DNA from: Formosa haliotis
GTDB taxonomy: Bacteria > Bacteroidota > Bacteroidia > Flavobacteriales > Flavobacteriaceae
Reading direction: 5' to 3'
NCBI RefSeq assembly: GCF_001685485.1
Contig: NZ_BDEL01000001.1
Location: 858,501 to 922,500, forward strand
Length of the DNA: 64,000 nucleotides
Shown: piece after piece, positions 2,739 to 62,180 of the stretch
How positions within the stretch are numbered: position 1 is the first letter of the stretch
Layout of the letters: each line of letters opens with the position of its first letter
Notes under the pieces: generated by a model
Told to the model about the DNA's origin: nothing
The model's input: the letters and a program-made list of their open reading frames with translations, nothing else
Databases searched by the model: none
Position numbers and translations under genes: made by a program

Positions 2739-4763
2739 TTAGTTCTTATCTTTTAGTACAAACCTAACTGCTGCACCACCTCCTGGAGCCAAATGTAAGG
2801 TTAGAGTTTCGCCTTGGTTTAATGTTTTATTAGCCATTATTACGGGATAGGGATTAGTTTTATAACGAGCATCTTCACCATCTGTATACAATTCTGCTTC
2901 GTAAGTTTTACCGGAGTCTAAAAAGCTTAAAGGAATTGTAAGTGTTCTGGATTCAGCATTGGTAATTGCTCCTAAATACCAACTATTTTCGTCCCAATCT
3001 TGTCTTGCCATAACAACATACTCTCCTATTTTAGCATCTAAAACTTTGGTGTGCGACCAAACTTCTGGTACATCTTTTATAAACTGAAATTCGGGTTTAC
3101 CTTCATAATTTTCTGGTAAATCGCTAGCCATTTGTAGCGGACTAAATAAAATAACGTATAATGCCAGTTGCTTTGCTAATGTTGTTTGAACCATAGCGTT
3201 TTGAGGGGTTTTATAATCGAAATCGAAGTTACCTGGCGTAAAATCCATTGGTCCAGATAGCATACGTGTAAATGGTAATATAGTAGTATGCTCTGGGGTA
3301 TTTCCTCCATCTGCAGACCATGCATTATATTCCTGTCCGCGTCCACCTTCCTGTGTCATTAAATTAGGATAAGTACGTTGCAACCCCGTTCCTTTAACCG
3401 GTTCATGATTATCTATCATGATATGGTATTTTGCTGCGGTTTCTATAATTTTTCTGTAATGCCTTACTCCATATTGTCCATCGTGCCATTCTTTTTTGTT
3501 TAAATACTTATTTACATAACCTGTCTTTACAGCATTTACACCATTTTTCTGATACAACTTAAAAGCATCCTCTACTTGGTCTTCGTAATGTGCCGCAGCT
3601 CCTGCTGTTTCGTGATGCCCAATAAGTCTAACATTTTTTTTAGCGGCATAATTACAAATAGCTTCAATATCAAAATCTGGATAAGTTTCTGTAAAGCTAA
3701 ATGCTGTACCGTCGGCAGTCCAATCACCATCCCAGCCTTTATTCCATCCTTCTACTAAAACGCCGTCAAAACCATTCTCGGCTGCAAAATCGATATAACG
3801 TTTTGTATTCTCTGTAGTCGCTCCATGTTTTTCGCCTTGTCCCCACGTATACTTTTCTAAGTGCATACCCCACCAAATACCGATATATTTTGAAGGTTCT
3901 ACCCAAGATAAATCGTCTATTTTTGAAGGTTCATTTAAATTAAGCATTAATGTAGAAGTTACGAGGTCGCCAGGTTTATCTGCAACAATTATAGTTCGCC
4001 AAGGGGTTTCGAAAGGGGTTTCGGCATATACTTTTACACCATCTGCCCAAGGCACCAACTCACTTGTATATTGATTATTTTTTGTTTTCCGTAAGGTCAT
4101 AGAAGCAAAGTCAGTTAAATTGGCTTCGTGAATTGCCAAATACTTCCCACTCTTCGTTTCAATAGTTGCTGGAGTGTTTATGGTATCTGTTTTACTTATT
4201 GCCGTTTTTCTATAAAAACTTTCGTAATAACTATTTTCAGAATGTACAGGAATCCACCATACTTTATGCTCTTCTGGAAAAGTAAATTCCGTTATTTCGT
4301 TAGCAATTTTTACTTTATTTAAATGAGGTTGCTTCGGAAATTTATATCGAAATCCTATACCATCATTAAACACTCTAAACACCACATCTACTAACCGCTG
4401 TTGTCCTTTTGTTTCCTGTAAATGCACAACCATTTCGTTATGATGGTCTGTAATGGTTTTAAATTCGCCCCAAGGTTGTTCCCAACGGGCATTAACCGTA
4501 TGGTGTTCTGTACTTATAATTTTAAAACCATCGGTTAAAGGTTCGTCTTCTTGAAATTCAAAACCTAGTTTGGAAGGTTCTATAATCGATTCTCCGTTAG
4601 ATGTTAACTTATATTCGGGTACCCCGGCCTCTGTTAAATAAAAACTTAAGGTGTTTTTAGTATTGGGAGAACTCACTTCTAAATCCTGTTGTTTTTCGCT
4701 ACAAGACACAAATAGCAACATTCCTAAAGCTATGAGATATAATTGATTTCTGTTTTTTTTCAT
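2739..4763 (-). CDS. Glycoside hydrolase family 97 lipoprotein (SusB-like alpha-glucosidase)
   Basis: A 674-residue GH97 protein with a lipoprotein signal peptide (LLFVSC, lipidated Cys at about 21). It has the N-terminal beta-sandwich, the central (beta/alpha)8 barrel and the small C-terminal domain of the family. In the barrel, VKTGYV occupies the position where retaining GH97 enzymes carry the nucleophile Asp (VKVDFM-type), so the protein looks like the inverting, SusB-type branch. Conserved acidic residues are visible in IDNHEPVKG, MTQEGGRG and NTPEHTT. The expected activity is release of glucose from the non-reducing end of alpha-glucans in the periplasm or at the outer membrane. It is the last gene of the operon, 27 bases after the GH71/99-like gene. 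An alpha-galactosidase role is less likely because the nucleophile is absent. Confidence 0.92.
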   Translation of the reverse strand: MKKNRNQLYLIALGMLLFVSCSEKQQDLEVSSPNTKNTLSFYLTEAGVPEYKLTSNGESIIEPSKLGFEFQEDEPLTDGFKIISTEHHTVNARWEQPWGEFKTITDHHNEMVVHLQETKGQQRLVDVVFRVFNDGIGFRYKFPKQPHLNKVKIANEITEFTFPEEHKVWWIPVHSENSYYESFYRKTAISKTDTINTPATIETKSGKYLAIHEANLTDFASMTLRKTKNNQYTSELVPWADGVKVYAETPFETPWRTIIVADKPGDLVTSTLMLNLNEPSKIDDLSWVEPSKYIGIWWGMHLEKYTWGQGEKHGATTENTKRYIDFAAENGFDGVLVEGWNKGWDGDWTADGTAFSFTETYPDFDIEAICNYAAKKNVRLIGHHETAGAAAHYEDQVEDAFKLYQKNGVNAVKTGYVNKYLNKKEWHDGQYGVRHYRKIIETAAKYHIMIDNHEPVKGTGLQRTYPNLMTQEGGRGQEYNAWSADGGNTPEHTTILPFTRMLSGPMDFTPGNFDFDYKTPQNAMVQTTLAKQLALYVILFSPLQMASDLPENYEGKPEFQFIKDVPEVWSHTKVLDAKIGEYVVMARQDWDENSWYLGAITNAESRTLTIPLSFLDSGKTYEAELYTDGEDARYKTNPYPVIMANKTLNQGETLTLHLAPGGGAAVRFVLKDKN

Positions 4764-28847: not shown

Positions 28848-29392
28848 GTTACGTTATTATTGCATTATTTCATATGATTTTTGTCAGGTTTAGACACGTG
28901 TTTTTGCGGTATTCACCTAATAATCATGTAACAATGTAATAATTTAGAAATGTATTAATGTAACAATTATCCCCTCGATTCACGACTCACTACTAACGAC
29001 TAAGGACAACTCACGATTTACGATGCAGAGATTTGAAGATTTGAAGATTTGAAAATGTAACATATTAACTCCAATTCACGATTCACGATTTCCGATTCAC
29101 AATTCACTAATAACTACCAACTAAAAAAAAGATTGCCGCGCTCCTCACTGTTCCGCTCGCAATGACGTTATCCAAACAACTTCTCCTTCCGATTCACGAC
29201 TCACCGACAACGATTAACGATTAACGATTCACTAAAAACTAAAGACTAACAACTAAGAACTCCCGATTCACGATACACGTCTCCCGACTCACAATTCACT
29301 AATAACTATTAACTAAATACTAACAACTAAGAACCCCCGATTCACGTCTCACGATTCACTAATAACTAAAGATTAAAGACTACCAAAAAATC
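28848..29392. repeat. Intergenic tract of heptad repeats and a half REP-like element
   Basis: Mostly degenerate 7-bp repeats of the GATTCAC and CTAACAA types (about 28975-29390), with a short (AGATTTGA)3 run near 29030. A right-hand half of the REP-like palindrome (GATTGCCGCG...CGCAATGACG) lies at about 29132-29166. No gene is seen. Confidence 0.7.
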
Positions 29393-32913: not shown

Positions 32914-33653
32914 AACCGAAGCAATCCATCGTCATTACAAAGGAGGAACGATTGAAATAATCTGTTGAATCAGAACTCCAATCAAGAGATTGCTTCGGTG
33001 CCCTCGCAATGACGGGAAGTACTTGTCATGCAGAGCAGAGAGCAACGTAGCGAAGCATCTATGCCCTACCAATAAAACCACAATACAAGGTATATACAAC
33101 CGAAGTAAATTATTATACTGAAACTTCTAACCTAGCCCCACCGTCATTACGAAGGAGGCACGACTGAAGTAATCTGTAACATTAGAAATCAGATTTATAA
33201 GATTGCTTCGCTAAGCTCGCAATGACGTTCTAACAACTAAAAACTAAGATCTAAGATCTAAGAACCAGGAGTAAAGAGTAAAGACAACACACGAATAATA
33301 AAGTATTGGGTATAGAGTATTTAGTATTGAGAATCGTGCTAACAACTAAGAACTACCAACTATTCACGAACCCCACTGTCATTACGAAGGAGGCACGACT
33401 GAAGTAATCTTTTAAATTAGAACTCCAATCATGAGATTGCTTCGGTGCCCTCGCAATGACGGGAAGTACTTGTCATTCAGAACGGAGAACAACGATGTGA
33501 AGCATCTATGCCCTACCAATAAAACCATAATACAAGGGATACACAACCGAAGTAATCTTTTGAATCAGAACTCCAAACATGAGATTGCATGGGTACCCAC
33601 AATGACGTACAAAACATGGTAGAGCCTGCTGTTATGATCGTAGGAAAGACAGA
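32914..33653. repeat. Cluster of REP-like palindromic elements
   Basis: Three full elements at 32930-33014, 33142-33227 and 33378-33461, about 84-86 bp each. Each has a left arm CGTCATTACGAAGGAGG-like and a right arm GATTGCTTCG...CTCGCAATGACG that are imperfect reverse complements. A partial copy lies at about 33543-33606. Between them is a second motif (TTGTCAT..AGAGCAGAGAGCAACG...GAAGCATCT) at about 33022-33060 and 33467-33510, plus heptad tracts. No gene is supported here. Confidence 0.8.
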
Positions 33654-34646: not shown

Positions 34647-36207
34647 ACTTCATTACGAGAGAGGTACAACCGAAGCAATCCCACGTCATTACGAGGAGGT
34701 ACGACGAAGTAATCTGTTACATTAGAACTACAATTAAAAAGATTGCTTCACTACGTTCGCAATGACGAATCCTAACGTCACTACAAGAGAAGCACAACCG
34801 AAGCAATCCTACGTCATTACAAGGAGGTGCGACGAAGTAATCTGTACTCATTGGAACTACAATTAGAAAGATTGCCGCGCTACGCTCGTAATGACGTATA
34901 AAAAATCAGTATATTAAACTATGAAAACTTCATACGTATACTTTATGACGAATAAAAACAACACCGTAATTTATGTTGGTGTAACGTCTAATTTAAAACG
35001 ACGTGTGTTCCAACATAAGTCAAAGACCTATAAAGGCTTTACAAGCAAATACAATTGTGATAAATTAGTCTATTTTGAAATATTTCAGGACATCAAATTG
35101 GCCATAGCCAGAGAAAAACAAATAAAAGCAGGTAATAGAAAGCGGAAAATCAGTTTAATTACGTCTACAAATCCCAATTGGACAGATTTATCCAACGGGT
35201 GGATATTTGATGTGTAATCTCACGTCATTACAAGAGAAGCAGAACCGAAACAATCCCACGTCATTACGAGGAGGTACGACGAAGTAATCTGTTACATTAG
35301 AACTACAATCAGAAAGATTGCTTCACTACATTCGCAATGACGAATCCCAACGTCATTACAAGAGAAGCACAACCGAAGCAATCCCAACGTCATCGCGAGG
35401 AAGGCACGACCGAAGTGATCTGTCACATTGGAAATACAATTAGAAAGATTGCCTCACTACGTTCGCAATGACGAATCCCAACGTCATTACAAGTGAAGCA
35501 CAACCGAAGTAATCCCTTCGTCATTACGAGGAGGTACGACGAAGTAATCTGTTACATTGGAACTACAATTAAAAAGATTGCTTCACTGCGTTCGCAATGA
35601 CGAATCCCAACGTCATTACAAGAGAAGCACAACCGAAGCAATCCCACGTCATTACGAGGAGGTGCGATGAAGTAATCTGTTACATTGGAACTAAAATTAG
35701 AAAGATTGCTTCACTGCGTTCGCAATGACGAATCCCAACGTCATTACAAGAGAAGCACAACCGAAGCAATCCCACGTCATTACGAGGAGGTGCGATGAAG
35801 TAATCTGTTACATTAGAACTACAATCAGAAAGATTGCTTCACTGCGTTCGCAATGACGAATCTAAACGTCTTTGTGAAGGAAGCACCACGTAGCAATCCC
35901 ACGTCATTACGAGGAAGTACAACGAAGTAATCTGTTACATTAGAACCACAATTAGAAAGATTGCTTCACTACGTTCGTAATGACGAATCTAAACGGCTTT
36001 GCGAAGGAAGCACCACGAAGCAATCTCCCCCATTGGAACTACAATTAGAAGATTGCTTCACTGCGTTCGCAATGACGAATCTAAACGGCTTTGTGAGGAG
36101 GAGAGACGAAGCAATCCCACGTCATTTCGGGGAGGTGCGACGAAGTAATCTGTTACATTTGAACTACAATTAGAAAGATTGCTTCACTGCGTTCGCAATG
36201 ACGAATC
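34647..36207. repeat. REP-like palindrome array, about ten units of about 127 bp
   Basis: Each unit has a half element (CGTCATTACAAGAGAAGC...CGAAGCAATCC, about 36 bp) plus a full imperfect palindrome: left arm CGTCATTACGAGGAGGTACG...GAAGTAATCT, a 30-bp spacer (GTTACATTAGAACTACAAT), right arm AGATTGCTTC...TTCGCAATGACG. The right-arm end recurs near 34765, 34893, 35342, 35472, 35601, 35730, 35856, 35982, 36078 and 36203. The array is interrupted once, by a GIY-YIG gene at 34921-35217. The spacers are conserved, so this is not a CRISPR. Confidence 0.88.
34921..35217 (+). CDS. Small GIY-YIG nuclease-domain protein
   Basis: 98 residues forming one GIY-YIG domain: YVYFMTNKNNTVIYVGVTSN contains the paired Tyr motifs (YVYFM/IYVGV), followed by the conserved Arg in LKRRVFQHK and a Glu in AIAREKQIKAG. 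This is the UPF0213/YhbQ-like minimal form found widely in bacteria. The family uses this fold to cut DNA. It is the only plus-strand gene in the region and is surrounded on both sides by the REP-like palindrome array, starting about 25 bases after one palindrome. The cellular target is unknown. Confidence 0.88.
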   Translation: MKTSYVYFMTNKNNTVIYVGVTSNLKRRVFQHKSKTYKGFTSKYNCDKLVYFEIFQDIKLAIAREKQIKAGNRKRKISLITSTNPNWTDLSNGWIFDV

Positions 36208-59159: not shown

Positions 59160-59866
59160 TGGTTTTAGTAGCTGCTAATATAGGAAATCGGATTTAATCG
59201 TGAAATGTTTTATTTAGTCTTTAGAAAAGTGAGTACAGAGTATTGAGTATTGAGAATCGTGCTAACAAATACCTACTACAGACTAAAAACTACTCACGTT
59301 TCACGATTCACGGCTCAACTAACAACTAACAACTAAGAACTATTCATGAACTCCACCGTCATTACGAAGGAGGTACGACTGAAGTAATCTGTAACATTAG
59401 AACTCTGGTTCATAAGATTGCCGCGCTACGCTCGCAATGACGTTCTAACAACTAAAAACCAAGATCCAAGAACCAGGAGTAAAGATTAAAGAAGATTCAC
59501 AAATAATAAAGTATAGAGTACAGAGTATTTAGTATTGAGAATCGTGTTAACAACTAATAACTACCTACTAACAACTAATGACTACCAACTATTCACGAAC
59601 CCCTCCGTCATTACGAAGGAGGTACGACTGAAGTAATCTGTTGAATAAGTGACCTTGATTCATAAGATTGCCTCTCTATGCTCGCAATGACGTTATCCAA
59701 ACAACTTTCTCCTTCCGATTAACGACTCACCGACAACGATTCACGATTCACTTATAACTAAAGACTAACAACTAAGAACTCCCTATTCACAATTTCCGAC
59801 TCACGATTCACCATCTATAAACCAGAAAATAACACCCGCTTAACACCTCGAAACCAATTATTCCCG
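59160..59866. repeat. Intergenic repeat mosaic with two REP-like elements
   Basis: Full 86-87-bp REP-like palindromes at 59357-59442 and 59606-59692, with left arm CGTCATTACGAAGGAGGT and right arm ending CTCGCAATGACG. The rest is degenerate heptads of three types: (TATTGAG)n, (CTAACAA)n and (GATTCAC)n. No gene is seen. Confidence 0.8.
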
Positions 59867-61359: not shown

Positions 61360-62180
61360 AAAGTATTGAGTTTAGAGTATTTAAAATTTAATATTGAGAA
61401 AGATACTTACGACTAAGAACTAAGAATCAGGAGCCAAGAATCAAGACTAATGAAGTATTGAGTACTGAGGATTTAGTATTGAGGATCGTGCTAACAACTA
61501 AGAACTACCTACTAACAACTAAGAACTATTCACGAACTCCACCGTCATTACGAAGGAGGTACGACTGAAGTAATCTATTGAATAAGAAACCTTGATTCAT
61601 AAGATGGCCACGCTACGCTCGCAATGACGTACTAAAGACTACCGACTAACAACTACTAACTAAGATCCTCGAGCAAAGATTAGAGACGATTTACGAATTC
61701 CGATTTACTATTCACGATTACCGATTCACAATTCACGGCTCAACTAATAACTACTACCAACTATTCACGAACTCCACCATCATTACGAAGAAGGTACGAC
61801 TGAAGTATTCTGTTGAATAAGAAACCTTGATTCATGAGATTGCCACGCTACGCTCGCAATGACGTTCTAACAACTAACAATTAACTACTAAAGACTAATG
61901 AAGTATTGAGTAAAGAGTATTGAGTATTTAAGATTGAGGATTGCACTAAGAACTAACGACTACCAACTACTAGCGATTTTCGATTCACGATTCACCATAC
62001 AGTTATAAGAAAGATTGCTTCACTGCGCTCGCAATGACGTACTAAAGACTACCGACTAACAACTACTAACTAAGATCCACGAGCAAAGATTAAAGACGAT
62101 TCACGATTTCCGATTTACTATTCACGATTACCGATTCACGGCTCAACTAACAACTAACAACTAACAACTAACAACTAACA
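61360..62180. repeat. Intergenic repeat mosaic with REP-like elements
   Basis: Full 87-bp REP-like palindromes at 61543-61629 and 61778-61864 and a right half at about 62007-62039. The remainder is degenerate heptads: (TATTGAG)n, (GATTCAC)n and (CTAACAA)n; the last 40 bases before 62180 are an almost pure CTAACAA run. No gene is supported. Confidence 0.8.

Follow-up and report, generated by a model that had tools for sequence, protein, structure and literature searches.

A minimal GIY-YIG nuclease gene and the REP palindromes bordering it on both sides probably form one mobile element of about 350-400 bp, which would be spread by its own nuclease; a probability of roughly two in three is given to this reading. 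It is preferred because tagged palindromes are enriched close to the gene, because the palindrome stem tracks the nuclease clade, and because copies bounded by the tags, a deleted unit, and occupied as well as unoccupied sites (in Azospirillum) are seen when sequences are compared; the conservation of the catalytic residues is a further reason. With regard to known systems, we class the element as REPtron-like, its nuclease being unrelated.

The window, which is the whole stretch of 64,000 nucleotides that was analysed, corresponds to G000:C1:858501-922500 of the 4.31-Mb, single-contig genome of Formosa haliotis. At 34921-35217 of its forward strand, an intact ORF encodes a 98-amino acid protein of the GIY-YIG family (PF01541; E 6e-18, 65.4 bits versus a cut-off of 22.6); the neighbours of the gene are polysaccharide genes (epimerase, glycosyltransferases). 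The gene is enclosed by a 1.55-kb array (34648-36203) of 28 CGTC-tagged REP arms identified by an arm scan, of which six, including two right arms, are located upstream (34648-34896) and 22, including eight right arms, downstream (35223-36203). The first-pass annotation, which had described a 98-residue GIY-YIG gene within about ten units of a REP-like array, is thus confirmed, the array having ten right arms. Its period is about 128 nt, and the commonest order within a unit is left arm, left arm, right arm. Between a right arm and the left arm of the next unit lies an 8-nt spacer, whose sequence is AATCCCAA or closely similar; the GIY-YIG gene occupies the place of one such spacer and is the only large interruption of the array. 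The first CGTCATT starts 5 nt past the stop codon. The REPs adjoining the gene on both sides have their tags pointing inward, not outward, for which the array structure could be the explanation.

Allowing at most one mismatch, CGTCATTRCGAG is found 37 times in the window versus 0.16 times expected, and none of 100 shuffles reaches that number. The looser arm scan yields 46 arms, namely the 28 of the array, 17 between 29167 and 62039, and one at 4232, which has two mismatches and is taken as a chance match. Fourteen of the 17 arms outside the array make up seven inverted pairs with outward tags, located at 32930-33014 (85 bp), 33142-33227 (86 bp), 33377-33461 (85 bp), 59357-59442 (86 bp), 59606-59692 (87 bp), 61543-61629 (87 bp), and 61778-61864 (87 bp). 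The three others are lone arms on the reverse strand, at 29123-29167 (45 nt, tag at 29167), 33563-33607 (degenerate, two mismatches, tag at 33607), and 61995-62039 (tag at 62039). The palindrome is therefore present at many other sites of the window, as had been stated, but for the most part not singly. Exact matches to CGTCATTRCGAR number 29 in the whole genome, and all of them lie at C1:887,656-920,539 (window 29156-62039), that is, within 33 kb around the gene. The GC content of the 29-62 kb region, 33.8%, is similar to that of the remaining window, so that a foreign base composition is not seen. The arms of the window are paired over about 5 bp at the outer end; their middle is long and imperfect, and singly they fold poorly. 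Compared with shuffles, two array units fold better as single-stranded DNA (z -2.5 and -3.0). Outside the array, no such advantage is seen for the pair at 59357-59442 (z -0.4) or for two lone arms (z about 0); the stability of lone arms as DNA hairpins is therefore not supported. A structured RNA was rejected, the Rfam search of the window having given no match at gathering score.

The catalytic residues of GIY-YIG nucleases are Tyr, Tyr, Arg, His, Glu, and Asn. In alignments of 33 and 28 sequences, Tyr7, Tyr18, Gly20, His32, Glu65, and Asn84 are invariant and Arg28 is conserved in at least 90%; one of the relatives' protein sets excluded lengths outside 60-160 amino acids, scores below 40 bits, identical sequences, and L005, L006, L031, and L075. 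The AlphaFold2 model consists of a lone GIY-YIG domain (pLDDT 89.3, pTM 0.80) and contains no extra DNA-binding domain. Its closest solved fold is BH0048 (PDB 1zg2; E 7.6e-4), followed by weak matches to Slx1 (E 0.05) and UvrC (E 0.2), and a hairpin or cruciform substrate would suit such a structure-specific nuclease. In the domain search, GIY-YIG is the only domain detected in the gene between the REPs, where no Y1 HUH transposase is found, and the REP-gene-REP unit holds no other gene.

Across other bacteria, the gene is often flanked by tagged hairpins as well. A homologue search is positive in 113 of the 149 genomes of the window's family; the gene is often present in several copies, and some of them contain stop codons. 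The loci compared comprise 80 further stretches from these 149 genomes, 18 of 33 plasmid records (Cyanobacteria, Alpha-, Beta-, and Gammaproteobacteria, Bacteroidota), and loci of named genomes, being the best 80 of 577 confirmed ones as ranked by likeness to an Azospirillum protein and, hence, not a random sample. According to the record titles, the latter derive from Alpha-, Beta-, Gamma-, and Deltaproteobacteria, Anaerolineae, Nitrospirae, Ignavibacteriales, Omnitrophus, Armatimonadota, and candidate phyla. GTC plus a 6-nt stem (5-nt if starting with AT) plus its complement counted as a tagged hairpin, and loci with short flanks were excluded from the flank counts. Among the 79 testable named loci from these best 80 of 577, 45 have a hairpin within 100 nt upstream and 46 downstream; 33 have one on both sides, 58 on at least one side, and 21 on neither. 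The corresponding values for the 127 family and plasmid loci are 64, 66, 46, 84, and 43. With eight scrambled tags, each set yields 0-4 loci that have hairpins on both sides; on either side, the yield is 2-14 of the 79 named and 6-23 of the 127 family and plasmid loci. The hairpin density is 5.16 per kb up to 100 nt from the gene versus 0.57 at 1-3 kb, with many downstream gene ends being placed too far for this figure (the 100-nt counts use corrected ends), and it is flat for the scrambled tags. Where both sides have a hairpin (92 loci), the nearest ones point outward on both sides in 54.

Two other tests addressed the flanks. GTCAT hairpins occur within 400 nt on both sides in 36 of 95 loci, versus 0-4 for ten other patterns (eight of 105 rows had been excluded as duplicates or for out-of-range lengths); the control pattern GTAAT reached 30 matches in total, probably because REP-A itself contains GTAAT. 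When no tag is presumed, at least four 11-mers are common to both flanks in 57 of 103 rows, and any common 11-mer is found in 74 rows versus 10.9 expected from shuffles.

In the Formosa haliotis genome, three further minimal GIY-YIG genes (L002, L003, and L004) are present. L002, whose product is 53% identical to the window protein, sits among a different CGTC palindrome (GTCATGCTGAACTTGTTTCAGCAT and similar; 30 matches genome-wide). Palindromes of this type also form tandem arrays far from the L002 nuclease, at G000:C1:1780789-1781930 and 2522900-2524133, with periods near 280 nt and alternating between 148 and 206 nt, respectively. L003 (36% identical; G000:C1:1724452-1724745) sits among a third palindrome type; five of the seven genome-wide matches to its motif lie around the gene and the other two, each with one mismatch, elsewhere, the backward control giving four. 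L004 (36% identical; G000:C1:2895545-2895790) adjoins a tRNA-Leu gene. Since a different palindrome or a tRNA gene stands beside each of these genes, each nuclease has its own surroundings. Of 109 window-type loci of the family, 37 have tagged hairpins within 100 nt on both sides and 69 on either side; in the L004 clade, of similar size, the numbers are none and three of 20, respectively. In the L003 clade, GTC hairpins within 100 nt are found on both sides in one and on either side in one of 29 loci, so that the GTC-hairpin rule detects few loci of this type; nevertheless, flank repeats are shared in 21 of the 29, the palindromes being of another, TTCGA-rich sequence type. With the scrambled-tag controls and the L004 control clade, chance and plain intergenic crowding were rejected. 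A link between nuclease and palindrome that is general and reaches well beyond the window is thus strongly supported at the level of sequence, by the flank enrichment and by the co-variation and tag-ended unit copies described below.

The strongest single result is that the palindrome follows the enzyme, not the genome. In the 150 loci that have a hairpin no farther than 150 nt away, a common 6-nt stem is seen in 1-4% of nuclease pairs of less than 50% identity and in 70% of those above 70% (Mantel r 0.39, reached in none of 2000 permutations); the protein set for this comparison was restricted to sequences of 80-130 amino acids free of stops, 199 of which were kept. As relatedness of the genomes could yield such co-variation, the test was repeated inside one family, where 76 loci from 49 genomes, nearly all of different genera, gave a Mantel r of 0.48 (none of 2000 permutations). 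When only loci with a paralog in the same genome are counted, which are not independent of each other, the stem is common with the closest nuclease of another genus and not with the closest same-genome paralog in 41 loci, the reverse holds in none, and four are ties.

Co-occurrence points in the same direction, the p values in each case ignoring relatedness. With a clade A nuclease (at least 57% identity to that of the window), 10 of 21 genomes contain at least six REP-A matches versus 15 of 128 without it (odds ratio 6.8, p 0.0003), the 57% cut omitting G031, with REP-A beside the gene, and admitting G141, with a B-type protein. At least one REP-B match is present in 10 of 10 genomes with a clade B nuclease versus 27 of 139 without (p 3e-7), and one CGTC-1 type, looked for in 96 alphaproteobacterial genomes, is present in 11 of the 32 that strongly match GIY-YIG versus 4 of the other 64 (p 0.0007). 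The first-pass annotation would have ascribed the link to chance if homologous genes were rarely near the palindromes or if palindromes abounded without the gene. The latter is seen in part: 15 of the 25 genomes with at least six REP-A matches have no nuclease reaching 57% identity with that of the window, and in four of these 15 (G016, G037, G051, and G072) the window, L003, and L004 proteins all lack a match at E ≤ 1e-3. REP-A matches number 40 in G016 and 34 in G110, the latter being without a clade A gene. REP-rich genomes devoid of the gene would be accounted for if it was lost once the REPs had spread, or by another driver. A hidden or decayed nuclease was rejected after a negative profile scan of five gene-less, REP-A-rich stretches (L114-L118; G110, G016), whose REPs therefore occur on their own. 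In one of them (L114, G110:C12:143500-149500), REP-A pairs stand at three gene junctions of the trp operon, with no GIY-YIG gene there, and a small ORF at 993-1346 resembles, by eye, a four-helix-bundle protein.

The extent of the unit can be read from its copies. Of 13 same-genome pairs found, eight were read. In L287/L288, the homology reaches exactly from GTCAT to ATGAC, with none beyond; in L163/L195, it extends from GCTGTC to GACA, the right flank of L163 comprising only one base; in L045/L060, it stops at GACAA on the right and starts inside the first REP on the left. The copies of each pair occupy sites unrelated to each other; their homology stops at the termini in the first two pairs, exactly so in L287/L288, and nearly so in the third. 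L285/L286 have several REPs around the gene in common, and in four of the eight pairs likeness is confined to the gene. Among 86 units selected for outward tagged hairpins on both sides, the median length is 403 bp (341-679); a pyrimidine precedes GTC in 75 and a purine follows GAC in 80, and terminal inverted repeats are present in all 86 by virtue of the selection rule. Target-site duplications of 2-6 nt show no clear excess over shuffles in these units, for which reason target duplication was rejected; elements of the IS200/IS605 kind need none.

Sites with and without the unit complement these data. In Sinorhizobium meliloti (L100:1655-1820), an internally deleted unit lies directly upstream of an intact one; both of its REPs, the leader, and the final codons of the gene remain, while the interior is gone. 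In Azospirillum lipoferum, the unit stands between sufB and sufC, where neither A. ramasamyi nor A. oryzae, at 96% DNA identity, has it; the empty sites have no palindrome, and the junction is not clean enough for reading the unit ends. At L104 and L113, in A. lipoferum (by annotation) and Shinella PSBB067 (by sequence), the gene stands between sufB and an apparent sufC in both cases, with different stems, which would reflect either a common hot spot or old inheritance. Seven Sphingobium plasmids, four of which were read, match the entire unit with its flanks; in the gene-bearing form, both REPs are complete and not halves of one palindrome. At the same site, TYG64 (L219) has one merged palindrome tagged at both ends, which could have arisen by deletion or represent a target; TYG74 has a degraded palindrome and TYG72 none. 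A search for insertion junctions in about 50 kb of four Sphingobium plasmids gave five rows at two places, which were not clean.

According to Di Nocera and colleagues (PMC3733652), most REPs belong to a GTAG and a CGTC super-family, of which the former accompany RAYT transposases and the latter are apparently without a dedicated transposase. CGTC REPs are defined there by a CGTC or TGTC tag ahead of a stem whose first bases are AT and by tag-outward dimers; the stem is 8-9 bp, the loop 4-5 nt, and the tail near CCA. By its tag and tag-outward dimers, the repeat of the window belongs to the CGTC super-family, although its arms have a longer imperfect middle. Many relatives display the stem-loop-tail form by eye, for instance ATTCCCGC-GCAG-GCGGGAAT-CCA. 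The CGTC REPs treated there, with Neisseria dRS3 and Rickettsia RPE-4 and RPE-6, resemble those described here in tag, outward dimers, and hosts; no dedicated transposase is reported in that account, whereas here a GIY-YIG gene accompanies them. Neisseria, Azospirillum lipoferum, Sinorhizobium, and Novosphingobium, which are CGTC REP hosts, are among the loci read.

The likeness to REP/RAYT systems that had been pointed out for the window holds in architecture: as in REPtrons and REPINs, a gene stands among palindromes, the palindrome type tracks the enzyme, and gene-less inverted pairs exist. In REP/RAYT, the enzyme is an IS200/IS605-type Y1 HUH transposase and the tag is GTAG; here, the nuclease is an unrelated GIY-YIG protein, the tag is CGTC or TGTC, and the unit measures 350-400 bp. 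The minimal unit would be composed of a REP, the GIY-YIG gene, and a second REP in inverted orientation, the GTC tags of both pointing outward (YGTC...GACR). The nuclease would recognise its own palindrome as a hairpin or cruciform and cut at the GTC tag or close to it; once freed or nicked, the unit would be captured elsewhere by host replication or repair, with no target duplication. Both the cutting and the self-movement by the nuclease are what we infer from the sequences. The dispersed 85-87-bp inverted REP pairs would be gene-less derivatives, related to the element as REPINs are to RAYTs, and the array would be the product of repeated local events. Counted against a mobile element are the 15 of 25 REP-rich genomes without a matching nuclease, the lack of a decayed one in the five gene-less stretches, the four of eight gene-only pairs, the quarter to a third of loci without a hairpin, the inward tags in the window, the poor folding of lone arms, and the target duplications not exceeding shuffles.

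The main rival, which is considered unlikely, would be homing: REP pairs would be older and spread otherwise, and the GIY-YIG gene would be a homing endonuclease entering the spacer of matching pairs. GIY-YIG homing endonucleases of the I-TevI type are mobile genes with the same catalytic fold; the known ones have separate DNA-binding domains and are located in introns or at fixed homing sites, whereas the nuclease of the element is one domain between palindromes of its own type. Homing would be compatible with the REP-rich genomes devoid of the gene, clade-specific targets would likewise produce co-variation, and homology would start at the tags if matching REP pairs already stood at both sites. 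The double-tagged palindrome of TYG64 could be such a target; however, the gene-bearing Sphingobium form has two complete REPs instead of palindrome halves, and the deleted unit of S. meliloti leads from gene-bearing to gene-less. Moreover, the five close matches to the L003 palindrome lie only around its nuclease, so that no stock of targets is apparent in this genome. Movement of the REPs by another host enzyme, e.g., a Y1 transposase acting in trans, with the nuclease merely favouring retention, is improbable. A retention role has been proposed for TnpB-type nucleases. The unit holding no other gene is in line with such a helper role, as is the frequent occurrence of tyrosine transposases in CGTC-bearing species (PMC3733652); it is contradicted by the tracking of the GIY-YIG clade by the palindrome and by the finding of the same paper that none of those transposase genes is flanked by CGTC REPs.

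Even less credence is given to a control function, by which the nuclease, as a host or element factor, would trim or remove hairpins and thereby limit REPs. The location of the gene within arrays and the weak fold match to the branch-cutting Slx1 would agree with such a function, but the genes are patchy, multi-copy, and partly broken, and REP counts are higher, not lower, when the matching clade is present. Hitch-hiking, i.e., a REP-rich imported island that happens to include the gene, is refuted as the sole explanation and considered the least probable of all. It would fit the position among polysaccharide genes, often a variable locus, and the confinement of exact REP matches to one 33-kb stretch; it is contradicted by the scrambled-tag controls, by the L004-type clade with its 0 of 20 loci, by the co-variation and the unit ends, and by the inconspicuous GC content of that stretch.

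A bolder form of the mobile-element reading, to which somewhat less than an even chance is given, would see a new enzymatic class of transposable element across much of the bacterial domain. Its units, at about 350 bp perhaps smaller than any other autonomous DNA transposon, would be driven by a single-domain GIY-YIG nuclease that acts alone on tagged hairpins; these units would be the source of CGTC REPs generally, including Neisseria dRS3 and perhaps Rickettsia RPEs, and a sister L003-type branch would drive the TTCGA-type palindromes. CGTC REPs are widespread among small bacterial repeats, and the nuclease is a candidate driver for a class that had none. With a gene that tracks the palindrome and is copied with it, the question of a dedicated enzyme becomes directly testable. 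If true, many genes that carry no annotation beyond "GIY-YIG nuclease family protein" or "excinuclease ABC subunit C" would gain a role, and a novel mechanism by which nucleases move DNA might emerge. Single-domain GIY-YIG proteins of the UPF0213/YhbQ type (BH0048), Slx1, and the N-terminal domain of UvrC share fold and catalytic positions with this nuclease; we know of no palindromes reported for them. A search of the open-access literature, with preprints and most subscription journals outside its scope, revealed among the matches listed no title or abstract joining bacterial GIY-YIG genes to REPs; both terms occur in one listed paper, PMC9465073.

The L004-type nucleases are perhaps a tRNA-associated, homing-like clade. 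Flank repeats are shared in eight of the 20 loci, some of them probably being tRNA copies. A tRNA gene (Leu, Met or Arg) is located near nine of the ten best L004-type loci and none of the next ten (L251-L270), and at some loci the L004-type nuclease is present in tandem copies.
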